Origin: Clostridia bacterium
GTDB lineage: Bacteria > Bacillota > Clostridia > RUG12999
Direction: 5' to 3'
Length of the DNA stretch: 64,000 nt
Assembly: GCA_022801925.1 (NCBI GenBank)
Contig: JAAWTG010000002.1
Location: 62,001 to 126,000, forward strand
The position numbers were made by a program, and so were the translations under genes. The first letter of the stretch is position 1, and each line of letters opens with the position of its first letter. Below, piece by piece: positions 27,169 to 37,851 of the stretch. The notes under the pieces are model-generated. The model was not told the DNA's origin, ran no database searches, and saw only the letters and a program-made list of their open reading frames with translations.

Positions 27169-28456
27169 TTATTTGATTTCCGTGCCGCATGCGGGACAGA
27201 ATTTCGTATTTTCACTCACTTCTTTTTCGCAGTTAGGACATTTTTTCATCAATGAATATCCGCATTCTGAACAAAATTTGCTGTCCGGCATTAGAACATT
27301 TCCGCATTTTGGACATGGCTTGGGCGCTTTTTCGCCGCAGGCTGGGCAAATATCCGTATTGTCCGGAATATCGGCGTTGCACTTTAAGCAGGGATTGTAT
27401 TTCTTTCCGCATTTTGGACAAAATTTGGTGCTTTCAGTGAGTGTACAGCCGCAGGAGGCGCAGTTGATTTGTTTTGCATTTTGTGCGCTTTCCGTATCAC
27501 AGCCGCAGAGGTTGCAAAAGCGATCATTTTTTCCGATTTGTCCTTTGCACTGAGGACACATTTTGGTTTCGGCAGTTGTGATGTTCTGCGCCAGTCCGCC
27601 GAATTGCTGACCAATTGCGCCGCCGACACCGATGCCCATTCCCAAACCAATACCGGCGCCCATCATGCCGCCCTGCATAGAATTTGGGTTTGTTGCCGCA
27701 CCTTCGAGCGTATCAAAGGAACGTTCCTGCTGATAACTATATCCGACAATATCCATTTCAGCTCTTTTCGACAATGCTGCCTTTAGTTTAATGACCGTGT
27801 CATCGTCCACGGGAACATTGATATCGTTTACATAAAACGAGGTTAATTGAATTCCGTATTCCTGAAAAGAAGGCAATATCTTTTCACTGAGATAGGTAGA
27901 TATTTCGTCAAGATAAGCGTTTATCTCCAAGATGCTGATTCTTTTATGTACGAGGTAGGAGGAAATGACGTCTTTGGATTTTGTTAAATAGACGCTTCTG
28001 AAATATTTTAAAATATTTGTTTTATCAAATTGCGGCAGGCACCCCCACCAATTTCATCAGAAATTTTTTGGAATCTTCTATTTGAATACCAAATTGTCCG
28101 AATGCACGAACCGGAATAAATACGTTATATTTCGGGTCTTGCAATTGAATCGGAGTAGAGGTTCCCCATTTGATGTCCAATGAAAATATTTTGTTGATAT
28201 ACCATACTTCTGCACTGAACGGAGATTTGCCGCCGAACGGCAGATTCACCAATTTGTTTAATATAGGAATATTGGAGGTGTCCAGAGTATGCCGCCCTGC
28301 CTGAAACACATCGCACGCCTGACTGCCTTTGAATAAAATTGCCTCCTGCGATTCATTGACGATAAGCTGCGTCCATGTCCCGAGTTCACTGTTTGGGTAT
28401 TTCCAAGCGAACACGTCAGGATTATCGTCGTATTTTACCACTTCAACAATAGCCAT
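27169..28456 (-). pseudogene. SPFH-domain/zinc-ribbon protein (YdjI-like), interrupted by one frameshift
   Basis: Two minus-strand frames encode consecutive parts of one protein. The first starts at ATG 28456 (MAIVEVVKYDDNPDVFAWKY) behind GGGGAG and carries the SPFH core up to KLVGVPAAI and a stop at 28025. The second frame takes over within it, reading QFDKTNILKYFRSVYLTKS, DVISSYLVHKRISILEINAY and on to the C-terminus. Removing one base, for instance from the G5 run near 28040-28046, would join them. The C-terminal part has a Gly-rich hinge (GAGIGLGMGIGVGGAIG) and about six zinc-ribbon CxxC pairs. Related proteins in Bacillus belong to the ydjFGHI membrane-stress operon. The rest of the gene is undecayed, so this may be a recent mutation, a switchable run or a sequence error. 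Confidence 0.85.
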
Positions 28457-28486
28457 TGTATGCTCCCCTTTTTCGTGTTTTAAAAA

Positions 28487-28498
28487 GTATAGGTTTTG
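28487..28498 (-). promoter_or_regulatory. CAAAACCTATAC element upstream of the SPFH gene
   Basis: The 12-mer CAAAACCTATAC lies on the minus strand 30 nt before the SPFH start, in the position of a -10 region (TATACT). The same 12-mer precedes the divergent DUF4234 gene. Confidence 0.5.
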
Positions 28499-28628
28499 CA
28501 AAATCCGTACTTTTGTCCCCACAGGAACAAAAAACATAAAAAAAGCAAAAAACATGTAGACAAATCGGGAAAAAGATGGTAAAATTATATATTGGAAAAT
28601 GCATATAGTGTATAGGAAATGTTTGTGA

Positions 28629-29590: not shown

Positions 29591-29623
29591 TTGACAAAAC
29601 GAATAATTGCGGTAAAATATAAT
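29591..29623 (+). promoter_or_regulatory. Promoter of the M60 peptidase operon
   Basis: A perfect TTGACA is followed by TAAAAT after 16 nt, with an overlapping TATAAT slightly downstream, about 40-50 nt before the gene. Confidence 0.6.
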
Positions 29624-29662
29624 AGAATAAAATGTATTATTTAATTAGAATGGAGGCACATA

Positions 29663-32600
29663 ATGATGAGACAGAAAAAAACGATAGCGACAGTATTATG
29701 TGCAGCGCTTCTCTCATCGGTCATTGCAACGACGGGATTTGCGGCAGAACCGGAACAGGTTACGGCAACGGGAGCGATGGGAAGTATTAAAGCAACGCTG
29801 CGGTTTGACTATCCACAGTTACTGTCGAAAGTGAAGGAAAAAAATATCAATATCACGCTCTACAAAGACGGAACAGCTATGGGAGAAATCCCACTAAATG
29901 GCGAGGTAACCGGCGAATTAGGGGACAAAACGCGTGTTACACAAAAAAATGTAGATGGTGTTGCAATCACAACGGAAGAAGAAATCGGATATTTAGACGT
30001 AGATATTAACGAACTTCCGTTGGGAAAATATAGTTTTGCATTTGAAGGCGATGGGTATACGCCATATAAAACACCAACAATTGCATTGCAAGATTATTCA
30101 CAGCAAATTATACTCGGAACAGGAGACAAAACGTTTTCTGTCGGTGATGTGAATGGTGATAAAAAAGTAAATAATACAGACCGTGAGTTGGTTTCGAACG
30201 CGCTGGGCAAAATAGATGAACAAAGTTTGTCCCGCTATGATTTGAATGGTGACAAAAAAATTGACATCATTGATTTGGCATATGTCAATCATCAACTTGC
30301 AGCACAAGGCGACATTCAAATCTTTGATACCAATTTGATTGCGCAAAAGGTAGTGCAGACGGATAAAATTACCCAGCAGGTAAACGTCACAGGCACAATC
30401 GGAGATATATTTTCAGAAAACAACGAAAAAGCAGTAACGCTGAAAGCCAAGGATGATGCTTCGGCGCTGTCTATTCCGATTGAATTTAATAAAGTGACTG
30501 AGATGGAACAAATTGAAGTAGTTTCTCCGGAGGGAAAAGGCGCACTGACCGCAGGAGTGGCGCAGATTACATATGAAGAAAACGGGAAAGAAGTGACTGA
30601 AGAAATTCCGTTTGATTCGGCGATACCGGAAGAAGTTGAACTGCTGAGTATGCAGGAGGGCACTTCGAGTGTTGTGATTTCTTTGGGAAAACGAGTAGCA
30701 GTCAAAAAGATTATCATTCATGTGAACAAAGTAGTGGGAGTAGAGGGCGAGCCGACTTATGCGGTTGTACAGGAAGTGAAATTCCTAAAGGATATCGTTC
30801 CGGAAAATCCTGCGCTTCAAACCTTGAATGTCAAAAATGTGAAAGCAACGCCCAAAAATGAAAGCGTGCAGTTAAAATGGAGCGAATTCCCGAATATCAC
30901 AGGATACACTGTGTATTATGGAACACAGAGCGGCGTATATGATAAACAGCTTACAGTTGATACAAATACAGCGCTTATCAGTGGACTGAAGAATTTAACA
31001 ACTTACTATTTCACCGTTACGCCAATCAGTCCGGGCTGGGAAGGCGCACGGTCAGAGGTTGTCAGCGCAATGCCTATGCCGGATAAAGCGCCGCTAAAAC
31101 CGGATATGGTCGTTGTAAAACCGATGGACGGAGCACTTGGCGTATCATGGAAAAAAACGGAGAATGCTACTTATCATAAGGTATTCTATAAAGAAGCAAC
31201 TGCGGATAAATTTATCCAGTTTGGTGATAAATTTGAGACGACAAATGTTTCTATCGGCGGACTGACCAATGGAACAGAATATCTGCTTTATATTGTAGCC
31301 GGAAATGATATTGGTGAAGGACCAAAATCGGATTTGGCAACAGGTACGCCGGAAAAAATAGAAGTAGAAGCACCCAAAATTCCGACGCTTCACCAGATTG
31401 ACAAGGATAATATTGAAAAAATTGAAATGGCAAATCCCAACAACTATGATCGTAATGAATATCCCAATGGTTTTAATGTGCAGAATGTAGCAGACGGCGA
31501 TTATGGCACACACTGGGCGGCAAGAGCGTTCTGGGAAAGCAGCCAGTTTACTTTCACGTTTAAAGAAGCAAAAGAAATGAACTACATGGTGTATGTGCCG
31601 AGACTGGATGGAAATTATCGCAAGAGTCTGGAGAGATATTCCATCACAGTTTGGGATGAAGCGGGCAATCAAAAGACAGTTTCCAAACCGATTGCCATTA
31701 ATTCTACTGTAACAGGATATGTGATTCTGCCGTTTGAAAAAACAAAAGTGAAAAAACTGGCAGTATCTCTTGCGCAGTGGGCAGGATCACCGACAGGCGT
31801 AAGTCTTGCGGAAGCAGTGTTCTATGAATCCGATAATTTGGCATCGGAAGTGCGCGGATTGTTTAAAAACGACACTTATACAGAACTTTCCGATGAGGCA
31901 AAAGCAGATACAGCGGCAACGACGGCTAAAATTGAAGCATTACGTGCCGATGCAAATAATGCAGACGGATACTATGTGGATAAAGATGTTTTGCTTGACG
32001 AATTGAGTCTTGCAGAAGCATTGCTTGCCGGCAACACCGACGCGCTTGGACGTGTGAAAGCGGGAGTTGAATCCAGAAACGCCGGAAACGACGGTAAAAA
32101 ATATGGACAGTCCGGCAGCGATTTGCAGCCGCTTGGCGTTGTGGCATATTCCACAGCTTATGCAGAAAAGAATAAATTTGCACAGCCAAAAGTGACCATA
32201 TATGCACAGATTCCGGAGGGAGAAACGGTATATGTGGTTCCAACACAGTATTATGCGGAAGCAAATGCTTGGCAGGGCGGCGGTATCGCACTGCAGAACG
32301 GCAGAAATATCATTGAAATTCCGCAAATGGGTTCGCAGACATCAGAGCGCGGCGGCTCTCTCTATTTGAGATATTCCGGCGCGCATCCGGAAGATATTTC
32401 TCTGCAAATCAGACAGGGTGCAACGCCGATTCCAACACTGGAACTTGCAGATTGGTATCAAATAGATGAACAGACAAGACGGGCGCGTATTAATGCTTAT
32501 GTTGCGGAACTGGAAACGCATGTAGCCGGTTTGAATAAGCAGAATATTTCTTTGAGAATTGGCAACTCTACTGAAATTTCCATGCCGAATGTATTGTTGT

Positions 32601-34543
32601 CCGTAGCAGCGGACAGAGTGTTGGCAGGTATTAAACCGACGGGTGCGGATAGTGCAAAAGCGGTAGAAACACTGTATAACAACGTTCTTGCATGGGAAGA
32701 TATGATGCACATTGTGAATACCACACAAGGTATTGATAATACGCTGGAAAACAGCGATATGGAAAGCCGGCAGAATATCCGTTACATGCGCATGTTCGCC
32801 AAAGCATTTATGTATGCGGCGGGCAGCCACATCGGCATCGGATATGGTTCAGTAAGTGGCATGGCATGTGGGAAACCGATTTCCATGCTTGCACCGGATG
32901 CGACAGCAAACAACATTTTTGGCTGGGGTATTGCTCACGAAATCGGACATAACATGGATAAACTTGGAAAAGCTGAGATTACCAATAATCTCTATTCACT
33001 GATGGCGCAAACCTATGATGGAAAACAAAACACATTGGCTTCCAGACTGGAAAAGAGTAATAAATATAAGGGTATCTATGATAAGGTATCTGTAGGACGC
33101 CCGGGTATGTCAAATGATGTGTTTGTGCAGCTTGGCATGTATTGGCAACTCCATCTTGCTTATGATAATGGCGAAAACCCGCTGGACTTCTACAACAGAT
33201 TCTTTAAAGAATGGAAAAAAGGCAGTATTACTGCGCCGACAAGCGATGAACGTTTTGCCTTGGTTGCAAGTAAGACAGCCAACAAGAATCTTACAGAGTT
33301 CTTTGAACGTTGGGGCGTGGTTCTCAGCGACAGCACAAAGGCAGCGCTGGCAGCATATCCTGAGGAAACAAGAAGCGTTCAATATCTGAACGACGAATCC
33401 AGACGCTATCGGTTAAGCGGCGGCGCGGCAGGCGCCGGTACAACCACAGCAACAGCGGCGATAGACAGCGAAAATGAAAAACAGGTTAATTTGACCTTCC
33501 AGACTACAGCGGCAAGCGATTCTGTTCTGGGGTATGAAATTAGAAGAAACGGAACGCCGATTGCATTTACAACGGAAGGCACTTATACAGATATTCTGGG
33601 TTCGGCAAACAACTTGGCATTCAGCTATAGCGTGCAGGCAATTGATATGCTGGGCAACAAAATAGGTGAGGCAGCAGACGCAGGACAGATACGGATTTCC
33701 TATGTGAAAACGATCGATAAAAATAGCTATACGATGCAAAGAGATACAGATGGAACCATTCGTGTTGGTTTGCAGGAGCAAACCGCAGTTTCGGGTATCA
33801 AAGTAACGAATGCACCGACAGAAGGAGCATTCACGGTATCTGTAAAACGCGAAGATGATACGGAATTTACCGTAGCGAAAAACGGCAGCTTTGAGAAAAA
33901 CGAAACACCTGATGCGGCATATTATGTAGCATATTTCAATAAGCCGAAAACAGCTTCAGATGACACGCGTATCTGGACCTATGATGCAAAAGAAATGACG
34001 CTGACAGGAATTCCTGAAAATGCAGAAGTTGAATTTATCAGCTATGCAGGCGACAATATTGCATTTACCGGCGGCGCGGCAGTAGGACGTCTCAGCGCAG
34101 ATTATCGGTATGGTGAGGCAGAAGATGAAGTGATTGCAGCAGGTACGCTGGTGATTACCGGAACATACCGCGGCGACCCGTTGTATAATACGATTCAAAT
34201 AAACGGTAAATTCAGTTCTGTGAATTCTGAAACAGGTGAACAAACCATAGTAGAACGCGCTATTGACGGTTATGGTTTGCTGTTTGCAGAAGTGCCGGAA
34301 GATGGTGAAGTGAGCGATATTAGCGATGGTATCTTCCTCTTTGTGCCCGATGTACAGAAAGAAGCAGAATTGCAGGGCGATGTGCATGACTGCTCAGCAG
34401 ACAGTTTGCTGCCGGCACAAATTCAGGCGCAGCTTTATCGCACAGATACAGTAACTAGCACGGAAAGCAAACGTTTGACGAGCGACACTATTTGGATTGA
34501 TTCGCCGTCTGGCGACGCAATGCCGGAAATTATACTGGAATGA
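29663..34543 (+). CDS. Secreted M60-family metallopeptidase with dockerin-like, FN3 and F5/8C modules
   Basis: The 1,626-residue protein has a signal peptide (GFAAEP). Residues about 159-212 contain two calcium-loop repeats, VGDVNGDKKVNNTDRE and YDLNGDKKIDIIDLAYVN, the pattern of a type I dockerin. Two fibronectin type III domains follow (about 386-472 and 474-563), then an F5/8 type C-like carbohydrate-binding domain (about 590-720) and the peptidase M60 region (about 830-1240). The zinc site is HEIGH at 1092-1096, with the downstream AEITNN glutamate at 1105. M60 enzymes cut O-glycosylated proteins such as mucins. The last 390 residues look like beta-sandwich modules. An unusual feature is the internal, not terminal, dockerin. 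An SLH protein follows after 11 nt and may be its surface partner. Confidence 0.88.
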   Translation: MMRQKKTIATVLCAALLSSVIATTGFAAEPEQVTATGAMGSIKATLRFDYPQLLSKVKEKNINITLYKDGTAMGEIPLNGEVTGELGDKTRVTQKNVDGVAITTEEEIGYLDVDINELPLGKYSFAFEGDGYTPYKTPTIALQDYSQQIILGTGDKTFSVGDVNGDKKVNNTDRELVSNALGKIDEQSLSRYDLNGDKKIDIIDLAYVNHQLAAQGDIQIFDTNLIAQKVVQTDKITQQVNVTGTIGDIFSENNEKAVTLKAKDDASALSIPIEFNKVTEMEQIEVVSPEGKGALTAGVAQITYEENGKEVTEEIPFDSAIPEEVELLSMQEGTSSVVISLGKRVAVKKIIIHVNKVVGVEGEPTYAVVQEVKFLKDIVPENPALQTLNVKNVKATPKNESVQLKWSEFPNITGYTVYYGTQSGVYDKQLTVDTNTALISGLKNLTTYYFTVTPISPGWEGARSEVVSAMPMPDKAPLKPDMVVVKPMDGALGVSWKKTENATYHKVFYKEATADKFIQFGDKFETTNVSIGGLTNGTEYLLYIVAGNDIGEGPKSDLATGTPEKIEVEAPKIPTLHQIDKDNIEKIEMANPNNYDRNEYPNGFNVQNVADGDYGTHWAARAFWESSQFTFTFKEAKEMNYMVYVPRLDGNYRKSLERYSITVWDEAGNQKTVSKPIAINSTVTGYVILPFEKTKVKKLAVSLAQWAGSPTGVSLAEAVFYESDNLASEVRGLFKNDTYTELSDEAKADTAATTAKIEALRADANNADGYYVDKDVLLDELSLAEALLAGNTDALGRVKAGVESRNAGNDGKKYGQSGSDLQPLGVVAYSTAYAEKNKFAQPKVTIYAQIPEGETVYVVPTQYYAEANAWQGGGIALQNGRNIIEIPQMGSQTSERGGSLYLRYSGAHPEDISLQIRQGATPIPTLELADWYQIDEQTRRARINAYVAELETHVAGLNKQNISLRIGNSTEISMPNVLLSVAADRVLAGIKPTGADSAKAVETLYNNVLAWEDMMHIVNTTQGIDNTLENSDMESRQNIRYMRMFAKAFMYAAGSHIGIGYGSVSGMACGKPISMLAPDATANNIFGWGIAHEIGHNMDKLGKAEITNNLYSLMAQTYDGKQNTLASRLEKSNKYKGIYDKVSVGRPGMSNDVFVQLGMYWQLHLAYDNGENPLDFYNRFFKEWKKGSITAPTSDERFALVASKTANKNLTEFFERWGVVLSDSTKAALAAYPEETRSVQYLNDESRRYRLSGGAAGAGTTTATAAIDSENEKQVNLTFQTTAASDSVLGYEIRRNGTPIAFTTEGTYTDILGSANNLAFSYSVQAIDMLGNKIGEAADAGQIRISYVKTIDKNSYTMQRDTDGTIRVGLQEQTAVSGIKVTNAPTEGAFTVSVKREDDTEFTVAKNGSFEKNETPDAAYYVAYFNKPKTASDDTRIWTYDAKEMTLTGIPENAEVEFISYAGDNIAFTGGAAVGRLSADYRYGEAEDEVIAAGTLVITGTYRGDPLYNTIQINGKFSSVNSETGEQTIVERAIDGYGLLFAEVPEDGEVSDISDGIFLFVPDVQKEAELQGDVHDCSADSLLPAQIQAQLYRTDTVTSTESKRLTSDTIWIDSPSGDAMPEIILE

Positions 34544-34554
34544 GGTGAAAGCAC

Positions 34555-35694
34555 ATGAAATCCATTGCAACAAAGATACTATTATTTGTCTGTGTGGTTT
34601 GTATTGTGCTGGGGGGCGGCGTAGCAATCTACGCCGCTGACACCACACCGAAAATAGCAATCACATTAGATAACACAAAAAAGAATGCAAAAATAAAACT
34701 GGAAAATGTCGGAATCATGATTTATTCTGCACAGATTACATTAAAAGTCAGTGATTTGACAGCCGACTACACACTCACGCCGGAGAACCAGAATGCCTAT
34801 AGTAAGGTGAGAAAAGATACAGAAAATAATACGCTTGTGTTGTATATTGATTCTACTGAATTGATGGATGGCAGCAAGGAAATCAGCCTTGCAACGCTTG
34901 TATCAGACAAGGAAATGAGTATCAGTAACAGAGCAGAATTAATTTTAATAGACCGTTCAATGGTCTCTGCACCCTATAATAATGTAGTGGTAAACGTTTC
35001 TGCCGAATCAAGCAATACCAATAATCCATCACGGAATCCGGGCGGTGCAAGTTCCGGAAATCATGGTGGTATAACGGGAGTTGTTACAGTGCCGGTCACG
35101 CCGCCTTCGTCGACGCAGGGTACAATCGGGGGATTTACAGATGTGGCGGATAATCACTGGGCAAAAGGGTCGATTGCATATGTGACCGTGAAAGGTCTGT
35201 TCAACGGTATGACAGAGACCACCTTTGCACCGGATACAGAAATGACCAGAGCGATGTATGTAGTAGTACTCAGTCGGTTTGGTACAAAGATAGATGCAAA
35301 ATGGCAAATTCCGTGCGACAGTCCCAAGCAGTTTGACGATATTGCTGCGGGAGAATGGTATGCGGACGCGGTAGCGTGGGCAGGCGGTACCGGGCTGGTA
35401 AATGGTATGGGTAACAATATGTTTGAACCGGCAAGACCGATTACAAGAGAGCAGCTCGCTGTCATGACGGTTAATTTTGCGAAGCTGTGCGGTGCAGAGC
35501 TGCCGTCTAACGTAGAAGCGGTGACATTCTCAGATAACGATAAAATTCAGAGCTATGCGGCGGACGCGGTGCGTGCAGCGCAGCAGGCAGGACTGATAAA
35601 CGGACGGACAGACGGAACGTTTGCGCCGCAGGATACGGCAACACGCGCGGAAGTCGCGGCAATTTTACACCGGTTTGTTACATTGGTAAAATAA
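34555..35694 (+). CDS. SLH-anchored protein with N-terminal beta module (possible cohesin-like)
   Basis: The 379-residue protein has a signal sequence (hydrophobic to AIYAADT). Residues about 28-145 form a beta-rich module: KIAITLDNTKKNAKIKLEN, IMIYSAQITLKV, NTLVLYIDSTELMDG, ISLATLV. A Gly/Asn/Ser linker follows, then three SLH repeats at about 190-379 (FTDVADNHWAKGSIAYV, FDDIAAGEWYADAVAWA, FSDNDKIQSYAADAV with FAPQDTATRAEV). The N-terminal module has the size and strand rhythm of a divergent cohesin, and the preceding gene encodes a dockerin-like repeat, so a receptor role is a reasonable hypothesis, unproven by sequence alone. GAGGTG precedes the ATG, and the gene shares an operon with the peptidase. 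Confidence 0.85.
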   Translation: MKSIATKILLFVCVVCIVLGGGVAIYAADTTPKIAITLDNTKKNAKIKLENVGIMIYSAQITLKVSDLTADYTLTPENQNAYSKVRKDTENNTLVLYIDSTELMDGSKEISLATLVSDKEMSISNRAELILIDRSMVSAPYNNVVVNVSAESSNTNNPSRNPGGASSGNHGGITGVVTVPVTPPSSTQGTIGGFTDVADNHWAKGSIAYVTVKGLFNGMTETTFAPDTEMTRAMYVVVLSRFGTKIDAKWQIPCDSPKQFDDIAAGEWYADAVAWAGGTGLVNGMGNNMFEPARPITREQLAVMTVNFAKLCGAELPSNVEAVTFSDNDKIQSYAADAVRAAQQAGLINGRTDGTFAPQDTATRAEVAAILHRFVTLVK

Positions 35695-35707: not shown

Positions 35708-35745
35708 AAAGTGCAGATATCAAATAGACATCTGCACTTTTTCTA
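35708..35745. terminator. Hairpin terminator
   Basis: AAAGTGCAGAT pairs perfectly with ATCTGCACTTT across an 11-nt loop, followed by TT, 14 nt after the SLH gene. Confidence 0.85.
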
Positions 35746-35839: not shown

Positions 35840-37789
35840 ATGGTATGTCAAAATTTGGTTGACAAAGGCACGGTAGTCATGACAAAACCGACCGAGCATA
35901 CGCCATCATGGGGGCGGTTGATGGGGCGGTATTGGGAAATGGCGATATGGGTGCAGTCGTCAGAACGGAAGCTGATGGGTTTGCGTTTTTGTTAGGCAAA
36001 AATGATTTTTGGCGGCAGCAGCAGTTATATGAAACAAAGCAGCAGCAGGGAGAATGACTTTTAAAAGAAACCTGCCGATGTACCGGCGGGCGTATCATTC
36101 CGATAGGGTAGCTGCGTTTGCAGGTTGATGGTCTGTATCAGACAGCATTCCATATAGAACAAAATATCTATGATGCGCAGGTGACAATGCAGGTGGATTG
36201 GAACGACGATTTTCTGTATTGGCGTGCATGGATATGCGCCGTGCAAAATACATTGGTGGTTGAAATAGAAAATCGTTCCAAAATGGAGGCGGCGTTTGAT
36301 TTTAGTATCATGCCGGGCGAATATAACATTGGCGAAGTGTCCGGGTATGATGATGGATATACAGAAGACGCAGTGTGGTTCACTTATGGAGCGGAACCAT
36401 ATCACGTGCAGGGGAAACGGATTGTCACTGCGGTGGCGGCAGGCATTCTGGGAAAAAAAGCGTGGTGGAAACCGGCGATGAAATTTTGGATTCCTATTAT
36501 TATTCATCTCTATATTGGCTGGGCTGCTGTACCGGCGAAGGGAAAGTGCCGCCAGCGTTATATGGTTGCTGGACAACAAGTGACCTTGCCAATTGGTCGG
36601 GCGCCTATACGCTCAATTATAATTACCAAAGTCCGTTTTTTTACCTGTATACCTCAAACCGGCAGGAACTCATTTCTTCTTATATAGACCTGCTGTTGGA
36701 CATTATACCAATCGGAGAAATGTATGAAAAAGAGAAGTTTGGAAGAAACGGAATTTGCCTGCCGGTGGAAATCGGACCGTTTGGAACGGTGTGTTCAGGT
36801 CTGTTTCACCATCAAAAAACCAATGCGGCATATTGCTGTGTGAACATTTTTATGCACTTTTTCTCAACCTATGACTTGGAATGGGGAAGACGCGCATATC
36901 CTTTTGTGAAAAAAACGGCAGCATTTTGGGAGGAAGATTTGGTGTATGAAAACGGTATATATAACGTTGTGAACGATGCGGCGCACGAGGAAGTTGTGTC
37001 GGAAGGGGAACGGAATAATATTCATGCGCTTGGTCTGGTGAAGATGCTGTTTGACGGCATTTTAAAAATGAGCAGAGAACTCGAAACAGACAAAGAATTG
37101 AGAGCAAAATGGCAAGACATAGCAGAACATTTGCCAGCGTTTCCGCATTATGTCCGCAATGGACAAAAGGTATTTAAATATAATGAAGATAGTTATGCGT
37201 GGCGTGAAGCGAATGGTACACGGGTGAAATTCATCTATCCGTTTGGCTGTGTGGGACTGGACGCGGATACGGAAACACTGGAAATGGCACGCAATACCTT
37301 GGAACAAAAAGAAAATTTTTTTCCAGCCCAACGCTTACTGTGAATATGCACAAATGCGTGCGCGGGTGAATTGTGACCCCCAAAAGACATATGAAAAAAT
37401 GAAAGAAGGGTGTTTGAATCTCAGTTACCCGAAACGCTACATGATTGCACATGGCGGAGGAATTGAGGATTTCAGTGCCATTCCAGGCGGTATCAATGAG
37501 ATGATGATGCAAAGTCATGAGGATGTCATTCGCATTTTTCCGTCTTGGCCCGGCGGAAAAAATGCAAAGTTTTTCCATTTGCGTGCATATGGCGCTTTTT
37601 AGTGTCGGCGGAAATGAAAAATGACGAAGTGCAATGGATAGAAATTATCAGTGAGCGGGGAGAACGTTGACAATACAGCTTCCGTGGGAAGCGGATATAT
37701 ACAGAAACGGCGTGCAAGAAAAAACGGTGTGCAGGGCAGGGTTATATTGGAACCCAGCGTGGGTGATTTATTGGCATTTCAAAAGATAG
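35840..37789 (+). pseudogene. Decayed (alpha/alpha)6-barrel glycoside hydrolase, GH95-like
   Basis: Consecutive fragments of one protein appear in changing frames. Near 35900-36055 one reads VLGNGDMGAVV and FAFLLGKNDFW, after which the frame stops. From 36118 a frame reads TAFHIEQNIYDAQVTMQVDW. At about 36450 it shifts to YWLGCCTGEGKVPPALYGCW, ANWSGAYTLNYNYQ and ERNNIHALGLVKMLFDG. After 37310 it shifts to AYCEYAQMRARVNCDPQKTY and on to FFHLRAYGAF. A missing T in the run at about 37597 breaks it again, and the end reads IQLPWEADIYRNGVQ...YWHFKR with a stop at 37787-37789. The core pattern (PPALYGCW...W.G.YTLN.N) resembles GH95 fucosidase-type barrels. At least four frame changes make it non-functional. 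Confidence 0.8.
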
Positions 37790-37851
37790 GAACGGTAACG
37801 GAACCATTCACAAAGAGATAAAATACAGACATAAAAGAAAGGGGAAACAAA

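Follow-up and report, generated by a model that had tools for sequence, protein, structure and literature searches.

A dockerin-bearing M60 peptidase and a private cohesin receptor that holds it on the cell surface are very probably made by a single operon of a Clostridia bacterium of the gut, a reading to which we give a probability of roughly 0.83. The operon lies in the window, the whole stretch of 64,000 nt that was analyzed from a 2.95-Mb assembly of 96 contigs (G000:C83:62001-126000). Signal peptides would export both the enzyme and the receptor, and the three SLH repeats of the receptor would fix it to the cell-wall polysaccharide. The divergent N-terminal cohesin of the receptor would then bind the dockerin of the peptidase one-to-one, probably in a calcium-requiring manner, with the second dockerin segment as the main contact. 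In this way a peptidase without an anchor of its own would be held on the cell surface by the receptor, and there it may cut glycoproteins, most likely those of mucin type.

Locus and Operon Layout

The peptidase gene (29663-34543) and the receptor gene (34555-35694) are both open frames on the plus strand, and the gap between them is 11 nt. A sigma-70-like promoter (TTGACA-16-TAAAAT; 29591-29618, +) stands 45 nt upstream of the peptidase start and agrees with the consensus at 11 of 12 positions, a consensus match only, of a kind found 20 times in the region vs. 13.6 expected. Each gene has a Shine-Dalgarno sequence, GGAGG for the peptidase (29652-29656, +) and GAGGTGA for the receptor (34542-34548, +), the second of which overlaps the peptidase stop codon (34541-34543). 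A terminator-like 14-bp inverted repeat with A and T runs at its flanks (35708-35740; reported on the minus strand, nearly symmetric) stands 3′ of the receptor gene. With this operon-like layout, the two genes are read as one operon.

Directly downstream of the pair, a GH95-like gene lies in pieces across several frames (35911-37818). The gene is intact (741 aa) in another locus (L005:8828-11053) and gave no match in the part of L004 that was examined; its broken state in the window may reflect either gene decay or an assembly error. On the other side of the pair, an SPFH/Band 7 protein with zinc ribbons (27169-28555, -) occupies two frames, split near position 28040, and the same protein is a single 443-aa frame in L005.

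The Dockerin-M60 Peptidase

The first gene encodes a protein of 1626 aa (29663-34543, +), assigned from its open frame and Pfam matches, and all of its features given below lie on the plus strand. By inspection it begins with a signal peptide (residues 1-27; 29663-29743), followed by an X-like beta-rich domain whose boundaries were also set by inspection (residues about 38-158; 29774-30136). This domain is kept in the closer orthologues, with near full-length matches in G289, G376, G195, G340, G153, and G122. Behind it lies a type I dockerin (residues 161-212; 30143-30298), which matches Pfam Dockerin_1 (PF00404) with an E value of 1.6e-9 (38.3 bits vs. a cut-off of 22.9). Its two 12-residue calcium loops, DVNGDKKVNNTD at residues 162-173 and DLNGDKKIDIID at residues 193-204, both carry D or N at positions 1, 3, 5, 9, and 12 as the dockerin pattern demands, so the two calcium-loop repeats noticed in the first-pass annotation belong to a dockerin over the Pfam cut-off. 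The same annotation had called this dockerin internal; the dockerin is there, and its position is better termed N-terminal, since it follows the signal peptide and only one beta-rich domain.

Further along the protein are a fibronectin type III domain (Pfam; residues 390-468; 30830-31066) with a second one after it, an F5/8 type C (CBM32-like) domain that scores under the Pfam cut-off (residues 601-714; 31463-31804), and a complete Peptidase_M60 catalytic domain (residues 1010-1218; 32690-33316), matched by PF13402 with an E value of 4.2e-18 (66.3 bits vs. a cut-off of 25.8). Judging from the E values, neither the dockerin nor the M60 match is due to chance. The catalytic domain holds a HEIGH zincin motif (residues 1092-1096; 32936-32950) with a candidate third-ligand Glu 8 residues on, i.e., HEXXHX(8)E, in agreement with the gluzincin pattern HEXXHX(8,28)E that defines the M60-like motif (PMC3267712). 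Knowledge of the M60 family (PMC3267712) is what points to mucin-type glycoproteins as the probable substrate. No SLH tail, sortase signal, or membrane helix was found at the C-terminus of the peptidase, where the end of the protein was examined.

Among the orthologues, the second segment of the dockerin is better conserved than the first (mean loop entropy 0.62 vs. 1.26 bits). D1, L2, N3, D5, G6, D9, I10, D12, L13, and Y15 of the second segment are kept in at least seven of eight representatives, and the first calcium loop is lost in the G122 dockerin. Because the second segment is conserved and the first much less so, we infer that the second may form the contact face, with a single binding mode. 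In a PDB sequence search with the dockerin, the second best match was the module of a Clostridium perfringens hyaluronidase (2jnk/2ozn). One could also take the dockerin for a calcium-stabilized structural spacer that has no partner, in which case the two genes would merely be co-transcribed, and both the G122 orthologue without its first loop and the single clear dockerin of the genome would suit such a role. We hold this to be highly improbable, as conservation over seven families extends to I10, L13, and Y15, which are not calcium ligands, and a spacer predicts neither a cohesin fold in the neighboring gene nor the class-wide pairing of dockerins with cohesins.

The Probable Receptor and Its Predicted Cohesin-Fold Module

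The second gene (34555-35694, +; open frame and Pfam) encodes a receptor of 379 aa in which a linker connects the cohesin-fold module with three SLH repeats. A signal peptide recognized by inspection (34555-34635, +) precedes the module, which comprises residues 28-152 (34636-35010, +) and was assigned through structure prediction and profile searches. The linker is rich in Ser, Gly, Pro, and Thr (35011-35124, +), and the SLH repeats (35134-35253, 35332-35460, and 35527-35658, all +) match Pfam with an E value of 3e-33.

The first 150 residues of the receptor have no Pfam match over cut-off and none in NCBIfam, and Pfam Cohesin (PF00963) matches neither the module of the window nor the receptors of families f51 and f17. 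An hhalign comparison of three near-identical orthologues with nine cohesins of SLH partners gave no signal, which is uninformative because the query profile is without diversity. When the PDB was searched by sequence with a profile of 13 modules, only a weak match was obtained, to the S-layer protein EA1 (E 0.13). A MAFFT alignment that included a module from genome G055 was misaligned and was left out of inference.

Structure prediction is what connects the module to cohesins. The first AF2 model, built from three near-identical orthologues, reached a pLDDT of 70, and in a PDB fold search it matched cohesins and CNA-type collagen-binding adhesin domains about equally. A model from seven orthologues reached a pLDDT of 90.1 and a pTM of 0.85; its alignment held no recognized cohesin, and none of its sequences was picked for being one. 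Residues 27-152 are predicted to form nine beta strands, the sixth and seventh of which are separated by a short helix, so the first-pass description of an SLH protein with an N-terminal beta module, 11 nt behind the peptidase, agrees with both the coordinates and the model. At E values up to 1e-3, the PDB fold search with this model returned 14 matches, of which ranks 1 to 13 are cohesins and rank 14 is a copper-binding protein. TM-scores to the cohesins are modest, about 0.4-0.54, suggesting that the module represents a divergent version of this fold. From the predicted structure we are confident that the module has a cohesin fold, a nine-stranded beta sandwich nearest to solved cohesins, and its tentative identification as cohesin-like in the earlier annotation has thus been borne out, an unrelated fold not having been obtained. 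The modest TM-scores, together with the lack of a Pfam, PDB-sequence, or profile-profile link between the module and cohesins, count against our reading of the pair.

Alternatively, the module may be a matrix- or glycan-binding adhesin whose fold is similar to that of cohesins, and the dockerin may bind some other cohesin, such as the one in a second cohesin-SLH protein of the genome on contig C3, where a Pfam-level cohesin (E 3.9e-5) is followed by SLH repeats. The CNA-type collagen-binding domains that appeared beside cohesins in the three-sequence model would fit an adhesin. We consider this unlikely, since the seven-orthologue model matches cohesins almost alone, and since in all 13 genomes the module follows the dockerin-M60 gene, a place that a separate adhesin would not need.

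One-to-One Pairing and Exchange of the Wall Anchor

A profile of three module sequences was searched against 391 genomes of the class and recovered four further full-length modules, all directly behind an orthologous dockerin-M60 gene. From the other side, a query made from the X-like domain and dockerin of the peptidase (X-dockerin) found six further genomes at E<1e-7, each with a homologous module in the next gene. Both searches are independent of adjacency. A genome was taken to have an orthologous dockerin-M60 gene if it gave an X-dockerin match at E<1e-7 plus a long frame; the match in G329 (3e-7) is just above this threshold and spans little more than the dockerin. The 13-module profile returned exactly the same 13 of 391 class genomes, with the module gene always adjacent downstream of the dockerin-M60 gene, and because this profile was made from its own 13 members, the informative part is that no module was found away from the peptidase. 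In a sample of 398 genomes of the phylum, the same profile found only two genomes, both already among the 13.

In 10 of the 12 measured pairs the intergenic gap is -4 to 19 nt; the remaining two have gaps of 189 and 207 nt. The pair of G002 is split over two contigs, the receptor contig starting inside the peptidase gene and showing the same 11-nt gap as the window. Beyond the pair, the neighboring genes are not common to the families, except for generic kinds such as transporters. These coincidence counts are drawn from related genomes and are not probabilities. The proposal of a minimal two-gene system, put forward in the first-pass annotation, gains support from the one-to-one adjacency in 13 of 391 genomes and from the predicted cohesin fold.

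The means of wall attachment differs among the receptors. In families f1, f17, and f56 the module is followed by SLH repeats. The f58 receptor carries three CWB2 repeats after the module (E 1.8e-49), and the f40 receptor has an LPXTG anchor (22.4 bits vs. a cut-off of 20). The receptors of the two f54 genomes end with a short NPGTG or NPSTG tail and a hydrophobic stretch that look sortase-like by eye, the tail scoring 13.7 bits in one genome, below the LPXTG cut-off of 20. The f51 receptors (L178:9651-10763, L179:8665-9774, L180:3720-4823, and L202:12623-13735) keep the cohesin-fold module, and their C-terminal half of about 220 residues matched no known domain or anchor, which makes surface display less certain in that family. 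The enzyme-module pair is conserved and the wall anchor is not. A chance SLH neighbor in an SLH-rich genome was also considered and rejected, because the pairing holds in lineages with a non-SLH anchor. As the enzyme and the module stay together when the wall attachment changes, the simplest reading is that the enzyme needs the module, not the anchor. We think it likely that the modules form a hidden cohesin subfamily, the private receptor of one M60 lineage, and that the pair was kept in at least seven families of Clostridia with its anchor exchanged.

Dockerins and Cohesins in the Class and in the Genome

In a set of 60 relatives, 19 of the 48 dockerin genes found in SLH-bearing genomes adjoin an SLH gene on the same strand, and such a neighborhood occurs in 13 of the 19 relatives that have both kinds of gene; these figures are estimates, since the count steps over further dockerin genes and includes a few loci chosen by SLH similarity. 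Seven of ten SLH partners tested match Pfam Cohesin, six of them over cut-off, including those of G004 and G007 from the same family. The dockerin partners are of many kinds, namely subtilases, GH3-like proteins (by eye), metallophosphatases, and LRR proteins. Taken together, the neighborhood counts and the Pfam cohesins indicate that a dockerin protein with a cohesin-SLH receptor is a common layout in the class, and the pair of the window appears to be one specialized, sequence-divergent case of it.

Other members of these neighborhoods deserve mention. A small secreted protein of 190-230 aa that has a beta domain and ends in a dockerin recurs in L106, L113, L118, L063, and L150, in versions of about 300 aa in L130 and L149; across several families, its usual neighbor is a gene for a cohesin-SLH or cohesin-like protein. 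In G055 (L062:676-11055), a module-SLH receptor lies together with a subtilase, a lone cohesin-like protein, and two LRR proteins that each have a cohesin-like stretch and a dockerin; the locus resembles a small chained assembly.

In the window genome itself, SLH repeats occur in at least 75 open frames, which suggests that an SLH tail on the protein itself is the usual route to the surface in this organism, and the CsaB pyruvyl transferase that prepares the SLH ligand is present. A search of the genome gave one dockerin above threshold, that of the peptidase, and likewise a single M60 domain; the same kind of search gave 84 dockerin matches in a dockerin-rich relative. Only two Pfam cohesin matches were found, in separate proteins, and a scaffoldin with several cohesins was not found in the genome. 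The search for other dockerins that the first-pass annotation proposed as a check thus left one clear dockerin, which fits a private two-gene pair and not a multi-enzyme complex. The pair is not a cellulosome: it has one clear dockerin, and the multi-cohesin scaffold is absent.

The SLH protein on contig C3 (L009:15413-19648, -) is an fn3 protein of 1411 aa that ends in a cohesin joined by a Gly/Ser linker to three SLH repeats. Its cohesin was detected at E 3.9e-5 in the whole-genome search, and hmmscan run on the full protein did not recover it, for which reason we treat it as borderline. It could bind the same dockerin, which counts against our reading of the pair. The C3 protein clusters with two GH3-like genes and is a candidate second receptor. 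On contig C30 (L010:148-4344, -), an RCC1-repeat protein of 1398 aa has a weak cohesin match and a degenerate C-terminus that looks dockerin-like by eye, possibly the second dockerin of the genome.

This degenerate candidate, and the four and three dockerin matches in the same-genus genomes G001 and G002, would suit another arrangement, in which the receptor is a small scaffold for several dockerin proteins and the M60 peptidase belongs with them to a complex of several enzymes. We find it quite unlikely, for the receptor has a single module, the genome yielded one dockerin over cut-off and no multi-cohesin protein, and the other dockerins of the genus differ in type and sit elsewhere.

Implications and Comparison with Known Systems

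A private receptor would mean that cohesin-dockerin docking serves a single enzyme, not a multi-enzyme machine, in a genome without a cellulosome, and the docked enzyme belongs to a family of peptidases associated with mucus and the glycoproteins of the host. For gut biology, a commensal could in this way retain a probable mucin-cutting enzyme at its surface and not release it. Since the subfamily is invisible to the standard profile, some cohesins may be missed by surveys; if the hidden-subfamily reading is true, those based on Pfam cohesins undercount small cohesin-dockerin systems. Cognate and non-cognate pairs from seven families are natural material to map binding specificity.

OlpA of Clostridium thermocellum is a single-cohesin SLH-anchoring scaffoldin. 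The SLH-anchoring scaffoldins of cellulosomes are a defined class (PMC11557425), and the receptor described here resembles them in its cohesin-linker-SLH order and in that it would receive a dockerin partner at the cell surface. Unlike them, it comes from a genome with a single clear dockerin and without a large scaffold, its cohesin is not captured by the Pfam model, and its gene invariably stands behind that of its one enzyme. In the Limousia mucinolysome, mucin is degraded by cohesin-dockerin complexes that include dockerin-bearing peptidases and a wall-anchored cohesin protein (PMC12997984), and the pair of the window shares the cohesin-dockerin organization, the peptidase, and the wall-anchored cohesin protein. 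However, in Limousia the scaffoldins bear tandem cohesins and the dockerin enzymes number more than 20, whereas the window pair has one enzyme and one cohesin, and the terms M60 and SLH are absent from the main text of that paper (PMC12997984). Its complex predictions were judged by a pDockQ threshold of 0.3. The cohesin-dockerin enzyme pairs of C. perfringens (Adams et al., 2008, as described in PMC12997984; PDB 2ozn, 2vo8, 2jh2) are likewise non-cellulosomal and one-to-one and act on host glycans, and their cohesins are among the best fold matches of the module. In those pairs the cohesins are parts of glycoside hydrolases and link one enzyme to another, whereas the cohesin of the window sits on a surface anchor.

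With the M60-like peptidases (PF13402), the enzyme shares the catalytic domain, the HEXXHX(8,28)E motif, and the fn3 and CBM32-like domains (PMC3267712). Among 415 proteins in the M60-like survey, two had a dockerin and one an SLH domain, and no description of a dedicated receptor gene for M60 was found in that paper (PMC3267712). In the open-licence literature we came across neither a receptor dedicated to M60 nor this subfamily of cohesins, and swapping of anchors was likewise not found described there. Mucinolysomes, peptidases with a dockerin, and cohesins anchored by SLH repeats are already known; the new elements are a cohesin subfamily hidden from sequence models, its one-to-one link with M60, and the swapping of its anchor.
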